DNA from: a virus
IMG/VR virus record: IMGVR_UViG_3300025828_000164
Span: 1-25,885 of that record
Direction: 5' to 3' (one strand)
Length of the DNA stretch: 25,885 nucleotides
Part shown: piece after piece, positions 2,593-25,885 of the stretch
How the letters are laid out: each line of letters starts with the position of its first letter
How positions within the stretch are numbered: position 1 is the first letter of the stretch
Notes under the pieces: model-generated
Seen by the model: the letters and a program-made list of their open reading frames with translations, nothing else
Told to the model about the DNA's origin: nothing
Databases searched by the model: none
Position numbers and translations under genes: made by a program

Positions 2593-4371
2593 TTATTCCC
2601 CCGAACATGAACAGTTGCATTTTTTACTCTCTAAAGCTTTGATTCTCTTATCCATTTGCTTTATTGTCGAAAGGAGAACTGCGGTCATTTTACCGTAGTC
2701 CACCATTTTTTCACCTGCACTGTTTTCCGAAACTAGTTCCGGAATGTGCTTCTCAAGATCCTGTGCAACAAAACCAATTTCTGTTCTGTTGTGGAATCTA
2801 ACAGTGTCTTTCCACTGATAAGTGTATGTTTCTACATCAAGAACAGAAGATGAAGCTTCGTAAGGTTGAATATTTTTCTTTAAGTTTATATCAGAATAAG
2901 CAGGTTGATTTAAATCTGATGGTGTACCATCACCCACTACAAAGGCGTGAGGATTGTACTGTACTATTTGAATAATATCAGAACTAACTGGATTATTAGT
3001 TAAAGAAATGTGACTGTTGTTAGATACAGTAAAATCTGAATTACTTAGCTTAACACCATTCATATAAATCTGGATTAGAGAATTTCCAGTCGAAGTATAT
3101 GATATTAAACTATTTGTTAATCCAGTATATTGGTTTTCAGATAAAGAGTTCATTCTACCACTAATGAACCCGTTAGCTGTTCCAGCAAACGTGTTTGAGT
3201 CTGAAGTATTAACTACTCTTATTAAAAGTTCGCCCGGAGAATCTTGAGTATTAACATCATCAATATCATCGATAGAAATAATGTCAATCAATTCTCTAGG
3301 ATAGTTTCTAAACTTTTGAACAGACTCATCCCACACTAATACATCTGCATTAGAAATGCTGCCGTAGTCTACTAAAATATCTCCAATGTCACCAGTATTA
3401 GCAATAGATGAGTTTGAGAATACAAACTTGGTTCCGTCTCCGCTAACTCTTAAATACTTGTTAGCAGAAGAAGCCATACCTGTTATAGAAATGTTGGATG
3501 TATTGGGTAGCTTTACAAACCCACCTACTAAGTTAGCCGTAGAAGTAAAGTTGGTAGTTGAAGTAAATGTAATCTTGCCAGTGACAGTATCATCTTGATC
3601 CGATCTCATGAAACTATCAGCTGCATAGTTGTTAGATACAAAAATATCTTTTACAAAATTGTTTGAAGCAAATCTATTTTGTACATAATTATTTGAAGTA
3701 AATGTATCTTTAACATACGTGTTGGTGGCTCTTAGACCAATTCTAGTCAAAACAAAGTTGTTAGAAGTGTATCTATTCTGGACATAGTTGTTAGAGGTGA
3801 ATCTACCTTCAACATAATTATTTGTAGTAAACGTATCTTTAACAAAGCTGTTAGAAGTATATCTACCCTGAACATAGTTGTTAGATACAACACCAATGTC
3901 AGCTTTGAATGTATCAGACTGAGCATAATTGTTAGTTGTAAATGTAGCTATTGCAAAATTGTTAGAAACTAAGTCAGTTGAATTTAACCCATCTAATGTC
4001 TCAGCATCGACAAAAGTAATGTTGGCTCCGTTTCCAGAGAAATAATCTGCTAGTACTGTTCCTGTAACATTAATGTTAGCAGTATTACTTACACCAGTGA
4101 CAACCAACTTGCCGCCAATATGAGTGTTTCTAGAAACACCTAAGCCACCTCTTGTTTGAAGAGATCCTGTGGTAATGCTTGTAGATTGAGTGGTTCCATT
4201 TGCCTTTAAGTTTCCGCCAGAAAAAGTTCCACTAATAGCAGCACTTCCCGGAGTTGTGTTAGAATTAGTCGTGACAGCCTTCTCTCTGAAAAGGTTTGCC
4301 ATCTGATTAGTTCTAAGTCTCCAGAATTCAAATGTGTTAGTTGTCGTTGTATTAGATACGTTTACTGCCAT
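2593..4371 (-). CDS. Tail/baseplate fibre with decapeptide repeats and C-terminal S74 chaperone domain
   Basis: A 592-aa fibre. The N-terminus (TFEFWRLRTNQMANLF, residues 13-28) resembles the attachment segment of many marine myophage fibres. Residues 75-110 carry GGLGVSRNTHIGGKLVV, a common fibre motif. Residues about 134-254 are a run of ten-residue repeats of the form [FY]-[TV]-[ST]-N-N-[YF]-[VA]-x-x-[RT]. The C-terminal 100 residues are a peptidase S74 / endosialidase-type intramolecular chaperone: SDINLKKNI at 493-501, then WKD, GFVAQDLEKHIPELV and a closing coiled coil. In that family the chaperone trimerises the fibre and cuts itself off before the conserved Ser, here Ser493. The protein ends in an unusual CNCSCSGE tail. 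It overlaps the upstream 67-aa gene by 20 bases. The receptor is unknown. Confidence 0.9.
   Translation of the reverse strand: MAVNVSNTTTTNTFEFWRLRTNQMANLFREKAVTTNSNTTPGSAAISGTFSGGNLKANGTTQSTSITTGSLQTRGGLGVSRNTHIGGKLVVTGVSNTANINVTGTVLADYFSGNGANITFVDAETLDGLNSTDLVSNNFAIATFTTNNYAQSDTFKADIGVVSNNYVQGRYTSNSFVKDTFTTNNYVEGRFTSNNYVQNRYTSNNFVLTRIGLRATNTYVKDTFTSNNYVQNRFASNNFVKDIFVSNNYAADSFMRSDQDDTVTGKITFTSTTNFTSTANLVGGFVKLPNTSNISITGMASSANKYLRVSGDGTKFVFSNSSIANTGDIGDILVDYGSISNADVLVWDESVQKFRNYPRELIDIISIDDIDDVNTQDSPGELLIRVVNTSDSNTFAGTANGFISGRMNSLSENQYTGLTNSLISYTSTGNSLIQIYMNGVKLSNSDFTVSNNSHISLTNNPVSSDIIQIVQYNPHAFVVGDGTPSDLNQPAYSDINLKKNIQPYEASSSVLDVETYTYQWKDTVRFHNRTEIGFVAQDLEKHIPELVSENSAGEKMVDYGKMTAVLLSTIKQMDKRIKALESKKCNCSCSGE
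3610..3972 (-). repeat. 30-bp degenerate coding repeats in the fibre gene
   Basis: About ten copies of a degenerate 30-bp unit encode TSNNYV-type decapeptides in the fibre shaft. Two spacers (an insertion reading IGLRATNTYV and one reading FKADIGV) interrupt the register. The DNA copies have diverged at synonymous positions while Asn-Asn-aromatic is retained, so selection is on protein structure and this is not a fresh tandem duplication. Confidence 0.8.
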
Positions 4372-4556: not shown

Positions 4557-7500
4557 TTATACCTGCAGTGCTATGGCTCTTACGTTTTCGATAAGAGCAG
4601 GGTTAGAAGAGTTTTTAGTTCCAAAGCCCAAAGGCGAATCAATAGATGCATAAGTAACAATTTTTAATTGGAACTGCTTGTAAGTTTTATAGTTTGTTCC
4701 ACCTCTGTCATATTCAGCAATTCCAGTGATAGGGTCTGTTGCAATCAAACTATTAGCCGTGTACTTATTAGTATATTTGAATGCATAATCAGAACCTGTT
4801 GCATCGTTGAACACTTTAACCCACTCGGTAGCATTAATTTCATCTCTATTAAACAATCTAAACTCAAATTCTTTAACATCTCTTCTGTCATTACGAGCAG
4901 AATTAAGTTCAGGGGTTAAATTCTTTAACGGAGTGTATAGAACATTGTCCAGATTGTCGTACTGGTTAATAAATCTACCGAAGAGATAAATCTTAGCTCT
5001 AGGAGGCTTAAATGCCGACACCAAAACTCTCATGTCTTCAGCATCTTGTCCATCAGCGAGTGTTATGATTCTTGAAATGTATCTAACGTTAGTCTCACCA
5101 AGACCGGGGAAGATCTCACTGTAGATACTTGCACTTTCAAGAGTGCTTACCGAAGTTCCGTCGATGAAATTATTTGCACTATCATCAGGCGGAATTGTCA
5201 AGTTGCCAACTGCAGAAACCAAAGATCTTCTCATATCAACAAACGGAGAAGTCTTATCTGTTCTGTTGGTCATATCAATATTGACTAAGAACGAAGAGTT
5301 TCCTGTTGCAGATCCAAGTTTAAGAACTTCGTTCGTTCTAGATCTCAGAACTAAAGGATTGTCAGTGTACTCGTATTCATCTTCGTTTGGAACGGGGAAC
5401 GAAATACTAGACGTGTTCGAGATATTATATTCATGTTCAAAATCGATAGAAGAGTTTTTGTAAACACCAGATGTGAATTGTGTCACAATCGTACTATATT
5501 CATGATCAATCAAAGACATAAATGATGTGCCAACAAACTTACTAATATCTAAAGTTTCTAAGTCAAGTAAACTATCACTAGGACGATAAACAGCAATTTT
5601 GTATTTGTCTGTGTTGTAGGTAGTCCCATTAAGTCTTGTTTCAGTGAAAACCTTTGTTGACGAATCAGTCAAGTTTCCTGTAGTGGGAGCTAGTCTAATT
5701 TCATTGTTGATATTATCAATACCAGATACAACGCCAAATATCGCTGTATTCACATTAGCAACGGTCAAAGCTGGATCTGCGCTGGCACTTGTCATACCAA
5801 ACACGTAGTCTCCAATTTCGATAGTTGTTTTGTTGTTTACGAATGTGAAATCCTCAAACTCACCTCTATCAAAGTTTCTTGGAATCATTCTAACTTTAGC
5901 AGAGCCTGTTGAGAATACGGCTCTTCTTAAAGTAAATTTAATGTCTTCATCCTGCAAAGCCGACCATGTGTCCTCGTTTGCACCCAAGAAAGCTATGCCA
6001 CCGTAAGGCTGAGAATTTACAGCTGAACCTGTAGTGATATCGGTTCCACCTAATTGTGAGAAATAAACATCATAATCTGGATCCCCAGCAAACGGCTTAA
6101 CAACAAATGCATATCCTCTACCCTTTTGTAGATAAACTGGATAGTTAAAGGTAAATGTTGTAGGCACAGACGCATCGTCTGAAACATTTATGTCGGCAGG
6201 ATTTAAAGTAACATTTGTTGCTGTGTAGATGTTACTTGAGTCGGGATATCCGTTTCTTTGTGTCGTTACATACAGTTTAATGGGATTTTTTGAAGATTTT
6301 CTTTTGAAGAAAAGATCAATAGAAGACACAAAAACACCATCTGCATCACCTTGATCATCTCTAATATAGAATGTTTGAGCTATCGGGTCTCTTCTTGGAA
6401 GCCCAACATCACTTCGGGTTTGTTCACTAATTAATTCTGTAGTTACTTCAACATCAAATGTACGTCTAACAGCTTCTGCTCTTTCAACACCTATTCTATT
6501 GGAGTAGAACATTTTCTTTGCAGACGAAAGAACAGCGTCTGCTTCCGTTTCTAGATCTTGAATGTCAGCAATGAGAAATTCTCTGTCTCCCTGCAAAAAT
6601 GTTTGCTTAGGCACAAAGAAAACGCCAGAAACTGTTCCATCATCTGAGGTGATTAGGGGAGTTCCTTTAGGGGAAAATCTACGGACAAAAGGTGCAATAT
6701 CAGTCGAGGTTGCAATAACTGGATCTGCAAGACGTGTGCTTCTAATTGCATTAGGTGGAGTTGGCACTGTTGTAAATTTCATATGACCAGTAATTGCATC
6801 CATTGGAAGATCGCTCTCCAATCTTCCTCTTGTGATAGGATCTAAGGTTGGGAGTGGTCTCGGTGTAGGTCTTCCTCCCGGAACAACGTGTTCATCAACA
6901 TTGACGCCATTGAAGAAAACGGAGTGCAATTCCCGTGGCCTTAATCCACGGGCTGAAAATGCAATAGCCATCTCTCTAATGAAAGGTGTTGCTATTACGT
7001 TAGTAATTCTTTCGCCAAGAGATTCTTCACCTTCAACTACATTTGTAGTCACTACCTGTCCGGTTCTAGTGTTTAAAGTGATCGTTCTACGGCCTGTATT
7101 TTGAACCGTTGTTGACCAAGCACCCCAATTGGTAACTGTTCCCTCTTGAACATCTGGACGTTCTTCATCAGGATTGATAATAATTCTACCAATGTTCGTT
7201 TCATCAGTTCCAGCATCATATTCTGGGAATAGTGTAACTTCACCAATAAATTTAATTTCTACTGGAGCAGCAGGTCTAACTTTTGTTGCCTTATCTTGCT
7301 TTATATAATCAACTTCAGTGTAATTGTACATTACTCTTGGGCCGAACACAGAAATGTTGCCGGAAACAATTTCAGGTGTAAAGTTGTTAACAAGAATTTC
7401 TTTGAAAGACGGTCTTAGATGACTTCTACTCTGATCAATACAAGCACGATACTCGTTATCTAAAGTGTCGCCAAATTGATGAGATGAAAAAGGTTCTACA

Positions 7501-10500
7501 AAAATTCCATTTTTAAATCTCTCAATACCATTATCATTTTTAAACTGTTTATTAAAAGTATCACTCTCAAGAGCATTCAAAGAAGTGTAGTATTCAAGAT
7601 TGGTAATTCTTTGGTCAAGAGTGCCAATATCTTTCATGGTGTATCTTCTAATATTAAACTGATTAACATCAATCTTATATGGAATTGTGTTAAATTCAGT
7701 TTTTCTGTCTCTAAGCTTTCCGGAACTGTAGATATTTCTAGCAAGAGAAGCTTCTTCTCTTGTTAAGGATGGGAAAGGTGCAATATTTATTGTTGCTACT
7801 TTCATTGCATTATCTACTTCTGGTGGCGGTCCACTCAAGGTATTTGATACAGAAACGGCAACTTCTGCCCTTTCCGTCATATAAACATCTGCTCTTTTAC
7901 GAGTGTTAATCTTATAGTCTGAAACAAATTCGGTATTGTTCTTAAAAATAAGTAAAGAGTTTTTACTATTACCAGAGCCTTTAGCAGAATCTTTATCTTT
8001 AATGTTTGTGATATTAATAATAGATGTATTTGCTACACCAGAAAGAAGATTAGTGTTTTCTTTATTGTTAAATCTTGGTCTGTAGTCAACAAAGTCTCTC
8101 AAAGGAATTTTTCTATCAGTGCTTGAGATATAAGTTGGAATTTCTTCAAACTTAATAGTAGTCGTGTTTGCTGTTGTTGACGTAGTTGTTGGGTATGAAT
8201 CTACCGTGAAATACCCCTCACCGTCATTATTATCGACTGTAAAGGCATCCATTCTAACAACGATTGTATTATTTTCTGTTACAAAATTTTTGTAACGACC
8301 TTTGTTTGTTAAGCTTAACGTTGCATAATCGTAAAAATGATCTTTTTGACCTGAATCAAACTCAAAGAATCCACCATTCACTCTATTTAAAGAATCAGTT
8401 AATTGATCTTCGGTAAATGTGCTATTTGCAGTTCCACCACTTTCATTGGGTAAAACCCAAACACCTGTTACTTTGTGTACGTCTACTACACCAAGATCCC
8501 AAGGACCAATACTATTGGCCGAATTATTTGCTGTGTTAATTCTTCTATAAAGATTTTTTCTAATGTTTTTGCTGAAAGGCTTATAGTCTCTTCCATTAAA
8601 ATCGTAGGTAGCTCTTACACTGGTTGACCCTGTGAAGTTTGAATTGTTCAAAATAGGGATTTTAACATTAATAGTGTTATCAGCCTGACTTGTAGTTACC
8701 ATTGCTGGATCAACTGCAATTGTCTTGTTCGCAGGGATTACCTTTTCAAGAGTCCCAGATGCCGAATTCATGCTGTCTTTAGTCTGAATCTCAGTAGCGC
8801 TATTAATTTTAGTAACAATAGAAATGTCAGAGCCAATTCTAACAAAATCGCCCACATGAATATTGGCACTGAATCCAGCAGAAAGTGTAATAACATTGCC
8901 AGTCGAAGAAGACGTTCCAGTCGAATCACAAGAGATTTCACTACCTGTATTTGTTAACACAATGTTGTTAACCTCAGAAGCACTGTAAGTTCCGATGTTA
9001 TTGTCACCACTCAAATCTGTTTCATCGTCAACATCAATAACTAAAAAGCCGTTGGCGTTTAGCGTATCAGAAACAGAAGCAAACTTCCTAACAACAAAAT
9101 TATTATCATATGTGTTTGTCGAATCAGTGTAAGATCTGATCGCCTCTTCTCCAAAAGTGTCAAGCGGAATATTCTCAATACTAGAAATCACAGTATTGTT
9201 GCTTGAATTGAGAATTATGTCAGCGCCGCCCTTTACAGTATCATTTGTTACAATAGTTCTGGCGTTAGAAATAGAATCGTTAGCAGACTGCTCCAGACCA
9301 AACAAATGAATTCTGTAAACAGCATCAAAAGTACCCGGAGTACCCGACTCAAGTTCAACAGACTTAACATAGGCTTTACCGACATTGTTAGCAGAAGAAG
9401 GAATAAATCCTGTCAAACTCGATAAAAATGTAGTATTGGACGCTGGGAAATATCCTTGATTTGCTCCATTATGAATAAATGTAACTCTATCGTAAGGAGC
9501 AAAGTTTCCGTTAAATTCTCTTACACGAATGTAGTTTCCGTAATTAATGAAAAGTTCAAAGTCTTCTCTTTGAAGAGTGTTTGTCCCTCTAACAATAGTA
9601 TCTTTTAAAGGAGAAAGAGTTTCAACTTTATATCCATTAACGTAGCCATATCCCGGCTCAACGATAACATTAACCAGTTCGTTGTTGGACCCTACCGCTT
9701 CAGTATCTGTAACAAATCTCTTTACCGTGAAACTACCAGAAGTATCATTTTTTCTATTTGCTAACTGATCACCTAAAATATTGTACTGTGGATCTCTATT
9801 TTCCTGTAAAACATTGCCTTCTTCGTTGAAGTTAATCAAGACAGCAACAGCGTTCTGATTAATTAAGTTTGAAGTGTTAGCTGTAACCATTAAAGGATCG
9901 AGCTTAAGTCTATCTGCTCCCGGAGAAACTTCGTTGTTGAACCCTGCAGAATTATCAAGGAGAGACGTATCGGATTTATAGGTTACAATAGATTCATTGG
10001 AGTCGATTGCAACGATTGCATCATTTGCATCTTCAATATTATCAGACACTACAACGAATCCGGGATCAATGTTTAAGAATTGACCTTTATGATATACAAC
10101 ACCATCTTCGTTCGAGGCAACTGTTGCTCTCTGAGAAGTCAAAATACCTCCAGATTTAAAGCACTGTAGGCCAGAAAATTTAGTAGTGTTTAATGCTTCA
10201 ACAATATTGATCTGATCGTCATTGTTAAGATTGTACTTCAATACAACAGCAGTAGTATTGGCTGTATAATCGACACTATTTTTTTGCTGTTCACTGTTAA
10301 CGTAAACGTTCAGTGTTTGTGTGTTGGCTACAGTAAAATCTAAAATGAAAGTGTTAGATGTAACAGAAGTGTTTACAGTATTTGATTGTGAATTTCTAAC
10401 TGTCCGTTCAACAACATTTAAAATCTCAGGGGAAACTTCTGTTCCCAAAACACCAAAAGTTGTTAAGTTGCTGTGAATGGTAAAATTGTTAGAAGAAATT

Positions 10501-11141
10501 GAGTTATTGCTAAAGGAAATTCTTCTGTTAAGCGTTAAAGATGTATTATTAGCAATATTAACAATTTTTGCTTGGAACGACACTTTTCTTTTAAAAGGTG
10601 TTTCAAACAGAGTCATATAATCACCAACAGCATAATTGGTGAATGATGTCCCCGTACCCGTTACCGTGTTAGAGTTAATGGTAACAGATACGTTACCTAC
10701 AGATGTTTTAGCGTTCGATTCGTCAACATTATTGTAAACAACATAAAGTCTTTTTGTGTTTGGCGCTTCAGCTTGAGATCCTTCACGGTAAAAAATAATT
10801 TTTGCTTCTACATCACTTGACTGAGATGTTAAGAGAAGATTATTGGAAGAGTTGTAGATCTGATCCAAGTCAACAACATTGTTGTTAACGTAAGCATTTT
10901 TAAGTCTAACTACGTGGGCTTGTCTTACTACCTTTGGGTTAACGCCATCAACAATAGAACCATCCTTAAAGACGTGTGATCCAAATCTGCTGATTTGCTT
11001 TTGCAAAATTGTTTGAATCTGTGACAATTCTCTAGCTTGCACAGCAGTACTAGGCTTAAAAAGTACCTTATAAAACTTTTTGTTTTCCAAATAATCGTCA
11101 AAGTAAGGAGCGGTATTTAGATTTGTATTGATATCTGACAT
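4557..11141 (-). CDS. Giant DUF4815-type baseplate/fibre-attachment protein (2194 aa)
   Basis: The largest gene in the window. The N-terminus (PYFDDYLENKKFYKVLFKPS, then ARELSQIQTILQKQI) is the start of the DUF4815 family found in T4-like cyanophages and other large myophages. Around residues 1385-1415 is FSARGLRPRELHSVFFNGV, and from about 1585 to 1740 a conserved block begins with DPIAQTF and includes GVFVSSIDLFF, NGYP and QPYGG; both blocks recur in this family. It lies between gp8 and the fibre, where T4 has genes 9, 10, 11 and 12, none of which I can recognise here. It may therefore supply the peripheral baseplate and fibre-anchoring role (inference). AAGG lies seven bases before the ATG, and a late-promoter match lies about 70 bases upstream. 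Intact, no frameshift seen. Confidence 0.88.
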   Translation of the reverse strand: MSDINTNLNTAPYFDDYLENKKFYKVLFKPSTAVQARELSQIQTILQKQISRFGSHVFKDGSIVDGVNPKVVRQAHVVRLKNAYVNNNVVDLDQIYNSSNNLLLTSQSSDVEAKIIFYREGSQAEAPNTKRLYVVYNNVDESNAKTSVGNVSVTINSNTVTGTGTSFTNYAVGDYMTLFETPFKRKVSFQAKIVNIANNTSLTLNRRISFSNNSISSNNFTIHSNLTTFGVLGTEVSPEILNVVERTVRNSQSNTVNTSVTSNTFILDFTVANTQTLNVYVNSEQQKNSVDYTANTTAVVLKYNLNNDDQINIVEALNTTKFSGLQCFKSGGILTSQRATVASNEDGVVYHKGQFLNIDPGFVVVSDNIEDANDAIVAIDSNESIVTYKSDTSLLDNSAGFNNEVSPGADRLKLDPLMVTANTSNLINQNAVAVLINFNEEGNVLQENRDPQYNILGDQLANRKNDTSGSFTVKRFVTDTEAVGSNNELVNVIVEPGYGYVNGYKVETLSPLKDTIVRGTNTLQREDFELFINYGNYIRVREFNGNFAPYDRVTFIHNGANQGYFPASNTTFLSSLTGFIPSSANNVGKAYVKSVELESGTPGTFDAVYRIHLFGLEQSANDSISNARTIVTNDTVKGGADIILNSSNNTVISSIENIPLDTFGEEAIRSYTDSTNTYDNNFVVRKFASVSDTLNANGFLVIDVDDETDLSGDNNIGTYSASEVNNIVLTNTGSEISCDSTGTSSSTGNVITLSAGFSANIHVGDFVRIGSDISIVTKINSATEIQTKDSMNSASGTLEKVIPANKTIAVDPAMVTTSQADNTINVKIPILNNSNFTGSTSVRATYDFNGRDYKPFSKNIRKNLYRRINTANNSANSIGPWDLGVVDVHKVTGVWVLPNESGGTANSTFTEDQLTDSLNRVNGGFFEFDSGQKDHFYDYATLSLTNKGRYKNFVTENNTIVVRMDAFTVDNNDGEGYFTVDSYPTTTSTTANTTTIKFEEIPTYISSTDRKIPLRDFVDYRPRFNNKENTNLLSGVANTSIINITNIKDKDSAKGSGNSKNSLLIFKNNTEFVSDYKINTRKRADVYMTERAEVAVSVSNTLSGPPPEVDNAMKVATINIAPFPSLTREEASLARNIYSSGKLRDRKTEFNTIPYKIDVNQFNIRRYTMKDIGTLDQRITNLEYYTSLNALESDTFNKQFKNDNGIERFKNGIFVEPFSSHQFGDTLDNEYRACIDQSRSHLRPSFKEILVNNFTPEIVSGNISVFGPRVMYNYTEVDYIKQDKATKVRPAAPVEIKFIGEVTLFPEYDAGTDETNIGRIIINPDEERPDVQEGTVTNWGAWSTTVQNTGRRTITLNTRTGQVVTTNVVEGEESLGERITNVIATPFIREMAIAFSARGLRPRELHSVFFNGVNVDEHVVPGGRPTPRPLPTLDPITRGRLESDLPMDAITGHMKFTTVPTPPNAIRSTRLADPVIATSTDIAPFVRRFSPKGTPLITSDDGTVSGVFFVPKQTFLQGDREFLIADIQDLETEADAVLSSAKKMFYSNRIGVERAEAVRRTFDVEVTTELISEQTRSDVGLPRRDPIAQTFYIRDDQGDADGVFVSSIDLFFKRKSSKNPIKLYVTTQRNGYPDSSNIYTATNVTLNPADINVSDDASVPTTFTFNYPVYLQKGRGYAFVVKPFAGDPDYDVYFSQLGGTDITTGSAVNSQPYGGIAFLGANEDTWSALQDEDIKFTLRRAVFSTGSAKVRMIPRNFDRGEFEDFTFVNNKTTIEIGDYVFGMTSASADPALTVANVNTAIFGVVSGIDNINNEIRLAPTTGNLTDSSTKVFTETRLNGTTYNTDKYKIAVYRPSDSLLDLETLDISKFVGTSFMSLIDHEYSTIVTQFTSGVYKNSSIDFEHEYNISNTSSISFPVPNEDEYEYTDNPLVLRSRTNEVLKLGSATGNSSFLVNIDMTNRTDKTSPFVDMRRSLVSAVGNLTIPPDDSANNFIDGTSVSTLESASIYSEIFPGLGETNVRYISRIITLADGQDAEDMRVLVSAFKPPRAKIYLFGRFINQYDNLDNVLYTPLKNLTPELNSARNDRRDVKEFEFRLFNRDEINATEWVKVFNDATGSDYAFKYTNKYTANSLIATDPITGIAEYDRGGTNYKTYKQFQLKIVTYASIDSPLGFGTKNSSNPALIENVRAIALQV
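6932..6952 (-). other. GC-rich perfect hairpin inside the giant gene
   Basis: CCCGTGG and CCACGGG form a 7-bp perfect stem with a 7-base loop in an otherwise AT-rich gene, over the codons for the conserved ARGLRPRE segment. No T-run follows, so it is not a typical terminator. Confidence 0.4.
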
Positions 11142-23557: not shown

Positions 23558-24220
23558 ATGGCTATAACACTAAATTCCTTCAAGGAAACAGTAGAAAAGG
23601 TTGTAGGTAAACGACCTAAAGACGTTTTTCATTCTATTCTTCAAGAAGGTCTAGAACAAGAGATTGTTCCAGCAAGAACAAAAAGAGCCAGAGAATACTA
23701 TCGTGGATTTGGTGCAATGGCTTTAGAAAGTTCTAAAGAAACAATTTTAAAAAATAGAGATAGAGTAGCCAAACTTCCTACTATCGGAAAAATGTATTTT
23801 TTTCAGTACTATCCCAAGATGATAAAGGAACTACCTTATCATGATAGACTACCGATGATATTTCCTATTGACACCATAAATAATGGAATAATGGGCATCA
23901 ACCTACACTATTTGCCTCTTCAACCGAGAGCAGCTTTGATGGATGCACTTTATACTTTGTCAAGCGACAATACATATGATGATAAAACGAGATTGAGAAT
24001 AAGCTATCAGATTCTGAAGGTTGCTTCGAAATTTAGTATGTTTAAGCCTTGTGTTAAAAAATACTTATTCAATCAACTTCAGTCTCCTCTTTATGAGGTT
24101 AGATCATACGAATGGGATATTGCTTTATTCTTACCTGTTGAAATGTTCGCCATTGGGACAGGAGCGCCTAGTTCAGGTGTTGCTGGAATTGCACAAAAAG
24201 ATTCACTCGATAGGATTTAA
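23558..24220 (+). CDS. 220-aa virion-associated protein of uncertain role (gp2 candidate)
   Basis: Starts directly after the gp4 stop, with AGGA six bases upstream. The sequence contains YYPKMIKELPYHDRLPMIFP (about 84-103), then NNGIMGINLHYLPLQPRAAL, a conserved-looking core I associate with a widespread family of large-myophage proteins without firmly recognising it. The C-terminal half is helical with aromatic and basic residues (KFSMFKPCVKKYLF) and ends PVEMFAIGTGAPSSG. In T4 genes 2 and 4 are neighbours, so a DNA-end-protector (gp2) role is one possibility by synteny; another is a tail completion role such as gp3. No catalytic motif, signal peptide or membrane segment is visible. The gene is certain, the function is not. 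Confidence 0.85.
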   Translation: MAITLNSFKETVEKVVGKRPKDVFHSILQEGLEQEIVPARTKRAREYYRGFGAMALESSKETILKNRDRVAKLPTIGKMYFFQYYPKMIKELPYHDRLPMIFPIDTINNGIMGINLHYLPLQPRAALMDALYTLSSDNTYDDKTRLRISYQILKVASKFSMFKPCVKKYLFNQLQSPLYEVRSYEWDIALFLPVEMFAIGTGAPSSGVAGIAQKDSLDRI

Positions 24221-24867: not shown

Positions 24868-25557
24868 ATGTTACCACAAATTCAGACTGCTGTTTTTAAG
24901 ACCAAAATCCCATCTTTAAACAGAGAAATATTAATGAGACCATTTTTGGTCAAAGAAGAAAAAATTCTTTTGATGGCAAAACAGTCTGGCGAAAAAGATC
25001 AAATCTTTCTTGCTATCAAACAGGTAATTCAAAATTGTGTTGTCGATGATTCTTTGGATATTAGTAGACTTCCTTACTACGATATCGAATACCTTTTTAT
25101 CCAACTAAGAATCAACTCTGTTGGAGAATTCATCGAGATCGAAATTACAGATCCTGATACTGGTGAAAGGTGTCCTGCAACCGTAAATCTAGAGGACGTA
25201 AATATTATTTCGGGTGATGTTGTAGATAGAGTTATTATCAATGACCACACAGCCTTGATTATGAAGTACCCGACTCTGGATGAAATTTCTAGGGTAACAT
25301 CTGATAATGACGTTCAAGCATTTTTTGATACACTGAAATACTGCATCAAATCAGTATTCCACGAAGATCAAACATACGAATTTTACTCTTACAGTGATCA
25401 TGAAAAGGAAGAGTTTGTTGATTCTCTTACCGTGAAAAACATTGAAGAGTGTAAGGATTGGATTGCCGCAATGCCTTCTGTCGAAGTTGAAGCAAAGTGG
25501 AAAGAAGGCAAAAAGAATAAATCTATGAAGTTGAAAGGGATCAACAATTTTTTTTAA
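24868..25557 (+). CDS. 26: Baseplate hub assembly protein, gp26 family
   Basis: A 229-aa protein in the size range of the T4 baseplate protein family that includes gp26 (T4 gp26 is 208 aa). The pattern is an N-terminal PSLNREILMRPFLVKEEKIL, LLMAKQSGEKDQIFLAIKQV, then LPYYDIEYLFIQLRINSVGE, a two-domain layout like tail-assembly chaperones. T4 gp26 with gp51 acts in hub assembly and is not a major virion part. AAGGATG lies six bases upstream of the ATG. The frame ends in NNFF and TAA within a run of eight T, which is the slip site of a predicted -1 frameshift; this frame is the non-shifted product and the fusion would be 290 aa. Confidence 0.85.
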   Translation: MLPQIQTAVFKTKIPSLNREILMRPFLVKEEKILLMAKQSGEKDQIFLAIKQVIQNCVVDDSLDISRLPYYDIEYLFIQLRINSVGEFIEIEITDPDTGERCPATVNLEDVNIISGDVVDRVIINDHTALIMKYPTLDEISRVTSDNDVQAFFDTLKYCIKSVFHEDQTYEFYSYSDHEKEEFVDSLTVKNIEECKDWIAAMPSVEVEAKWKEGKKNKSMKLKGINNFF

Positions 25558-25618
25558 TACTGCTGGCTCATAACAACCTTAAAAATTACTACAAGCTAAT
25601 TTTTAATATGGCCCAGCA
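25548..25618 (+). promoter_or_regulatory. Predicted programmed -1 ribosomal frameshift signal
   Basis: The heptamer T TTT TTT occupies 25548-25554 in the correct phase (X XXY YYZ) with the gp26 stop TAA directly after it. Six bases later a nested structure begins: outer stem TGCTGG (25561-25566) with CCAGCA (25613-25618), inner perfect 10-bp stem TTAAAAATTA (25579-25588) with TAATTTTTAA (25597-25606) and an 8-base loop. Slip site, short spacer and downstream stem are the three classic elements of -1 frameshifting. The -1 frame is open from the slip site to 25737. The inner stem is all A-T and weak alone. Confidence 0.75.
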
Positions 25619-25739
25619 TCATGGATACAATATTTCTGATTTAGAAAATATGATTCCATTCGAAATGGAGTTATACTCTTCTATGCTAATTGACTATTTG
25701 GAGAAAAAGAAAAACGAACAGGAAATGGCTAGAGGCTAA
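25554..25739 (+). CDS. 51: gp51-like C-terminal extension read by -1 frameshift from gp26
   Basis: The -1 frame relative to gp26 reads 61 codons to TAA at 25737: an opening LILLAHNNLKNYYKLIF, then NMAQHHGYNISDLENMIPFE and MELYSSMLIDYLEKKK. The helical style, with YY...IF..A..H.Y...DLE.M.P.E, resembles the distal part of tail-assembly chaperones and the gp51-like proteins beside gp26 in T4-like phages. The only ATG (25608, giving 43 aa) lacks a ribosome site, sits within the stem-loop, and would discard coding-like sequence before it, so expression as a gp26 fusion is favoured. Homology to T4 gp51 rests on position (26-51 adjacent in T4) and is not a firm match. Confidence 0.65.
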   Translation, partial: LILLAHNNLKNYYKLIFNMAQHHGYNISDLENMIPFEMELYSSMLIDYLEKKKNEQEMARG

Positions 25740-25885
25740 TGGCAGACACTTTAAATGGACACATACGAAACGATATTCCAAAAAATGCAACAAAGGCATC
25801 TATTCGTTATAAAAATCCGGGTGCTGCTTACCCCGACATGTACTCCAAGATGTTTGGAGCAACTGAGTATGGAATAATTGGTGGA
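25739..25885 (+). CDS. N-terminal 49 residues of the next rightward gene (unidentified, tape-measure candidate)
   Basis: An ATG overlapping the stop of the gp51-like segment (TAATG) opens a frame that runs off the right edge. It reads MADTLNGHIRNDIPKNATKA, then SIRYKNPGAAYPDMYSKMFG. I do not recognise it. In phages with a frameshifting tail chaperone pair the next gene is usually the tape measure protein, and in T4 the 26-51 pair lies upstream of gene 29, so a tape measure is a reasonable guess by position. The start also has no clear ribosome site, suggesting coupling to the frameshifted product. The visible part is too short for domain analysis. Confidence 0.6.
   Translation, partial: MADTLNGHIRNDIPKNATKASIRYKNPGAAYPDMYSKMFGATEYGIIGG

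Follow-up and report, generated by a model that had tools for sequence, protein, structure and literature searches.

The -1 frameshift signal of E. coli dnaX is comprised of a Shine-Dalgarno-like (SD-like) sequence about 10 nt upstream, the heptamer A AAA AAG, and a hairpin located 5-6 nt downstream. For T4-like phages, the 2022 abstract of Vladimirov, Gautam and Davidson reportedly describes frameshifting as conserved in several groups. Lambda G/GT, and the wider set of Xu, Hendrix and Duda (2004), display a short chaperone gene with a -1 slip near its 3' end, a C-terminal extension, and a long ORF downstream. In T4, genes 26 (minus strand) and 51 (plus strand) are separate and on opposite strands, so that no frameshift can join them; according to a review of T4 tail assembly, gp26 and gp51 are both hub assembly chaperones, and gp51 is absent from the final particle (PMC3004832). 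The T4-like tail-assembly chaperones, including the two-gene arrangement of T4, were treated by Vladimirov, Gautam and Davidson (Virology 2022, 566:9-15, as cited in PMC10885494), and to judge from that reference the frameshift/chaperone idea for T4-like phages is already published.

The locus described here is located at the end of a 25,885-nucleotide stretch of viral DNA (IMG/VR record IMGVR_UViG_3300025828_000164), the whole of which is referred to as the window. Sequence comparison makes it very probable that programmed -1 ribosomal frameshifting takes place at the end of its gene 26, with gp26 and a 290-aa fusion as the predicted products, which would form a lambda-like chaperone pair. 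The arrangement is the same as that of lambda G/GT, from which it differs by the T-run slip sequence, the stop codon directly after it, and the presence of a hairpin. With dnaX it has in common the three-part signal of SD-like sequence, slippery heptamer and hairpin, whereas the gene is a different one, a T-run takes the place of A AAA AAG, and the strength of the stimulators varies between lineages. Compared with the T4-like chaperones of Vladimirov et al., as far as these are described in the citing paper, the genes are the same, gp26 being the short form and gp51 either the extension or the long form. The link between gp26, gp51 and the tail-chaperone system put forward in the original prediction is therefore right but not new, since both this link and the two-gene solution of T4 were, as the citing paper indicates, published before.

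Organization of the gene 26 locus

The following features, all on the plus strand, were identified at the end of the window:

24868..25557 (+): gp26 / TAC-N ORF, 229 aa, 0 frame, with an SD-like AAAGGA upstream
25534..25539 (+): Shine-Dalgarno-like AAAGGG at a spacing of 8 nt from the slip site, pairing weakly with the anti-SD in the window (-4.4 kcal/mol)
25548..25554 (+): slippery heptamer T TTT TTT, preceded by AAT, with 0-frame codons TTT TTT for Phe228-Phe229
25555..25557 (+): 0-frame stop TAA, directly 3' of the heptamer
25561..25618 (+): RNA hairpin, putatively stimulatory, with TGCTGG/CCAGCA as outer stem, a middle stem of 5 bp, and TTAAAAATTA/TAATTTTTAA as inner stem of 10 bp
25554..25739 (+): -1 frame extension, gp51 / TAC-C domain, 61 aa, open to 25736, stop at 25737-25739
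24868..25739 (+): predicted gp26-gp51 fusion (TAC-NC), 290 aa, by putative -1 slippage at 25548-25554
25739..25885 (+): start of the next ORF, with a TAATG overlap, running off the window end

The gp26 ORF matches the Pfam family T4_baseplate (PF12322, E 4.5e-47) and the PHROG family phrog_150, 'baseplate hub' (E 1.7e-46), and in gp26 this uncultured relative of T4 is only about 36% identical to any named phage. The extension matches phrog_634, 'baseplate hub assembly catalyst' (E 2e-20). The elements on which the original prediction was built, an in-phase T TTT TTT with an adjoining stop, a -1 frame open for 61 codons (25554 to 25736), and a nested stem-loop at six-base spacing, are all present, the last with an extra 5-bp helix between both stems. 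The heptamer is of the in-phase X XXY YYZ type and lies inside the ORF overlap; the 6-nt spacer to the hairpin falls within the 5-9 nt range of canonical -1 frameshift structures. The three helices (25561-25566/25613-25618, 25568-25572/25607-25611 and 25579-25588/25597-25606) fold with a minimum free energy of -16.5 kcal/mol (z -3.40), a value reached by one of 200 shuffled sequences.

The T7 run alone is unremarkable, as such runs are fewer on both strands of the window than expected from shuffling (11 observed versus about 31), and a second in-phase T TTT TTT is found at 23797-23803; the significance of the slip site thus rests on conservation. This second heptamer lies within an ordinary 220-aa gene, has no known role, and would be of use as a natural control.

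The ORF that follows the extension may encode a tape measure protein. The ORF at the same position in one relative (L002) is a candidate tape measure protein of at least 772 aa with no Pfam match; a putative tail tape measure is annotated two genes down in HTVC008M, and the annotation of phiM12 was likewise used.

For the fused protein, the structure was predicted with the 290-aa ORF of relative L006 as query, giving a mean pLDDT of 88.5 and a pTM of 0.80. The model displays a mixed alpha/beta N-part to about residue 223, and a helical extension of lower confidence. Foldseek comparison with viral models retrieved mainly gp26/gp51-like and uncharacterised phage proteins, and no solved lambda-type tail assembly chaperone was matched, either by fold in the PDB at E <= 0.001 (Foldseek) or by sequence. 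As the model has no counterpart among solved structures, its relation to lambda gpG is limited to arrangement and presumed function, in the sense of 'works like' and not of 'is a member of', and descent is not claimed.

Conservation of the slip site and its flanking elements

An in-phase T TTT TT(T/C/A) located 0-9 nt before the stop was found in 93 of the 99 related loci where the gp26 frame could be followed, and in 68 of at most 74 loci after removal of redundancy at 80% identity; these locus counts are not phylogenetically independent. In all 93, the -1 frame opens into a common domain of approximately 60 aa, ending 53-65 codons on where the contig was long enough. Named carriers of the heptamer include Kyanoviridae phages, Vibrio phage nt-1, Aeromonas phage 65, Cronobacter phage LPCS28, Stenotrophomonas phage Ps15, and Sinorhizobium phages phiM12 and phiM7. 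The codon usage of these genes predicts a heptamer rate of about 45%, even with Phe-Phe fixed, and the excess over this rate has a binomial p of 3e-17, to be read with the loci not fully independent and relatedness uncorrected. A further 80 loci were collected by way of the extension only; in 79 of them a long open 0 frame ends in a correctly phased heptamer, and only two of these 79 repeat sites of the first set. The sole exception (L129:1150-1215) has a gp26 end that was seemingly deleted or misjoined. As it is conserved across related loci, the slip signal is, on this comparative evidence, not a product of chance, and the two checks proposed with the original prediction, for conservation of the T-run and for stops in the -1 frame of relatives, both came out in its favor.

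Statistics on the hairpin, the SD-like element and start codons were obtained on the 68 non-redundant loci, which were drawn from the heptamer-bearing ones; a count of 68 of 68 is therefore uninformative on conservation, for which the fair figures are the three fractions given above. In 67 of these loci, the 65-nt stretch 3' of the site has a mean fold z-score of -2.49 versus -0.23 for control windows of the same genes (p 1.4e-15), with z below -2 at 60% of the sites versus 5% of the controls. The effect is weaker yet present in the independent set found through the extension (z -1.48 versus -0.47, p 3.5e-4). The stems occur in at least two registers among the relatives, about 40% of which have no clear hairpin, depending on the lineage, and ungapped RNAalifold over the 67 loci returned no single consensus hairpin. 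The registers were consequently analyzed group by group, leaving out of the folding alignment A4, in which fragments of gp26 and of the extension were mixed and the gp26 end was misplaced. In the register that the window uses (columns 15-23 against 62-70 in alignment A2), pairing holds in 93% of the cells, a percentage that is biased because the groups were picked by fold, the unselected z-scores being the fair test. Three pairs of this register have changes on both sides, and shifting the partner by one column reduces pairing to about a third; the second register has seven pairs with changes on both sides. An example among the closest relatives is the pair 25563-25616, for which the window has C-G, L002 U-G and L005 U-A, with silent changes in both codons. 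Covariation of the stem, another of the proposed checks, is thus seen in two registers, and the downstream hairpin looks selected by these sequence comparisons.

The SD-like AAAGGG of the window is replaced in many relatives by a strong GGAGGG. Pairing with the anti-SD peaks in stretches of nine bases whose 3' ends lie 6-9 nt upstream of the heptamer, with a mean down to -4.4 kcal/mol, and is about 0 to +1 kcal/mol at most other places. Codon choice points the same way: the Glu of a conserved 'LEGL' is encoded by GAG in 20 of 30 loci versus a background of 22% (p 2.6e-7), and the Gly codon of this motif ends more often in a purine than elsewhere. The upstream SD-like GAGGG thus also looks selected. 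A strong SD-like element goes with a weaker hairpin (p 0.006, relatedness uncorrected).

Proposed mechanism and competing explanations

In the mechanism that we propose, most ribosomes would stop at 25555 and release gp26, the short tail assembly chaperone TAC-N, while a minority would slip one base back with two tRNA-Phe on T TTT TTT and produce the 290-aa TAC-NC, aided by the hairpin that starts after 6 nt and perhaps by the upstream SD-like stretch. On the model of lambda gpG/gpGT, the N-part common to both products would serve to bind the tape measure protein, whose gene probably lies just downstream, and the extension at the C-terminus would bring in tail-tube subunits. What the sequences show is the signal with its conservation, the open frame, the hairpin, and the homology to T4 gp26 and gp51; that ribosomes slip in the host of the phage, how often they do so, and that the products act as chaperones is what we infer.

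It is improbable that the extension is a separate small gene, translated either from the ATG at 25608 or by reinitiation near the stop, although most annotators call gp51 in this way: GenBank records of relatives have it annotated as a separate gene or lack it, and an ATG is found just past the slip site in a number of relatives, that of S-CRM01 being accompanied by an SD. The annotated starts, however, vary between relatives. In the window, the ATG at 25608 is the first possible start in the -1 frame; it has no SD, would leave 43 aa, and would lose about 18 conserved residues. Moreover, 31 of the 68 loci have no ATG, GTG or TTG ahead of the conserved block of the extension, and a separate gene leaves the fixed -1 phase and the conserved T-run unexplained. 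An extension with its own ribosome site and start, part of the situation named in the original prediction as speaking against frameshifting, is rare among the relatives, an extension start with an SD being found in only two of the 68 loci.

The T-run itself can be read in two further ways. Transcriptional slippage, by which RNA polymerase would add one U on the T8 and bring some of the mRNA into the fused frame, draws on the T8 run shared by the window and its nearest relatives, and on L006, where a T9 reads through as a 290-aa ORF; it is nevertheless very unlikely, as 20 of the 68 non-redundant loci have six Ts only (TTTTTTC), which would be short for polymerase slippage, and the conserved feature is the tandem-slip register X XXY YYZ together with the hairpin and the SD-like element, which are marks of ribosomal -1 shifting. 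Homopolymers are also prone to sequencing error, and the fused frame of L006 might suggest that an indel in the T-run has split one in-frame gene; the probability of this is close to nil, and for the family a sequencing indel is refuted by the presence of the same split in over 150 loci, many of them in complete isolate genomes. Programmed -1 frameshifting, with gp26 and a gp26-gp51 fusion as the predicted products, is the interpretation of the original prediction, and is supported by the conserved heptamer, the open -1 frame, the covarying stem, and the low number of own starts.

The two-gene solution of T4 and loci without the heptamer

Of the T4 proteins compared with a profile of the fusion, gp26 is matched as far as 'GLKEFF', the equivalent of the slip site (E 8e-17), and gp51 over residues 7-244 of 249, extension included (E 1e-9), with no match to ten other T4 proteins or to shuffled gp51. 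In addition, tblastn directly connects the gp26 of T4-like coliphages with that of Aeromonas phage 65, a phage with the frameshift site. The gp26/gp51 link of the original prediction holds, the extension matching the gp51 family; T4 gp51 corresponds to the whole fusion and not only to the extension. Because T4 gp51 aligns with the whole fusion, T4 gp26 is, by these matches, the short form and T4 gp51 the long form with its own N-part, separately encoded. The absence of gp51 from the T4 particle (PMC3004832) fits this reading.

Six of the 99 loci lack the heptamer: L006, Listeria phage LIS04, and a diverged group of four Vibrio and Aeromonas phages. In L006 (3180-3200), T9 replaces T8 and gp26 and the extension form one ORF, which reflects either a homopolymer assembly error or a natural loss of the frameshift, the error being more likely. 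The two diverged groups keep the extension. In Vibrio phages K444, VPALA and D510 and Aeromonas phage TSW001 (L094, L095, L097 and L098, respectively), CTT TT(C/T) stands in place of the heptamer and the extension keeps its -1 frame; in K444 and D510 a TAATG overlap at the gp26 end would allow reinitiation, and VPALA and TSW001 have no nearby start for the extension. LIS04 (L096:3119-3409), from the same genus as Bacillus phage SP-15, has a gp26-like gene with the ending GAG TTT TTT AGT, followed by a gp51-like segment read in the +1 (= -2) frame; a shift by -2 or +1 on the T6 run may therefore operate in this group.

We consider it possible, with the balance of probability somewhat against it, that the two stimulators, the upstream SD-like GGAGGG and the downstream hairpin, are exchangeable and were traded between T4-like lineages, holding the ratio of short to long chaperone with the heptamer fixed, and that in lineages that lost the heptamer its place was taken by gene duplication (T4) or other recoding (the +1/-2 extension of Listeria LIS04/SP-15 and the CTTTTC of the Vibrio K444 group). 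A literature search on gp26/gp51 and frameshifting returned no open paper describing it, the prior work appearing only as a reference in PMC10885494. The conserved hairpin and SD-like element were not found described in the open papers searched, and the two-part stimulator may be a new detail. Judged from many genomes, in most T4-like groups the 'baseplate hub' gp26 and the 'hub assembly catalyst' gp51 appear to be two parts of one recoded gene, and hundreds of database entries are therefore probably misannotated, with gp51 as a gene of its own, often with an arbitrary start, or missing. The conserved slip site and its two stimulators lend themselves readily to tests of how a phage keeps two proteins at a set ratio.

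Elsewhere in the window, two large proteins are encoded on the minus strand. The protein at 4557-11141 (2194 aa) contains three DUF4815 stretches (PF16075, E 1.5e-42) and is presumably structural. That at 2593-4371 (592 aa) has many 'FTSNNYV' repeats and is likely a tail fibre, with a C-terminus that by eye resembles an S74-type self-cleaving chaperone domain.
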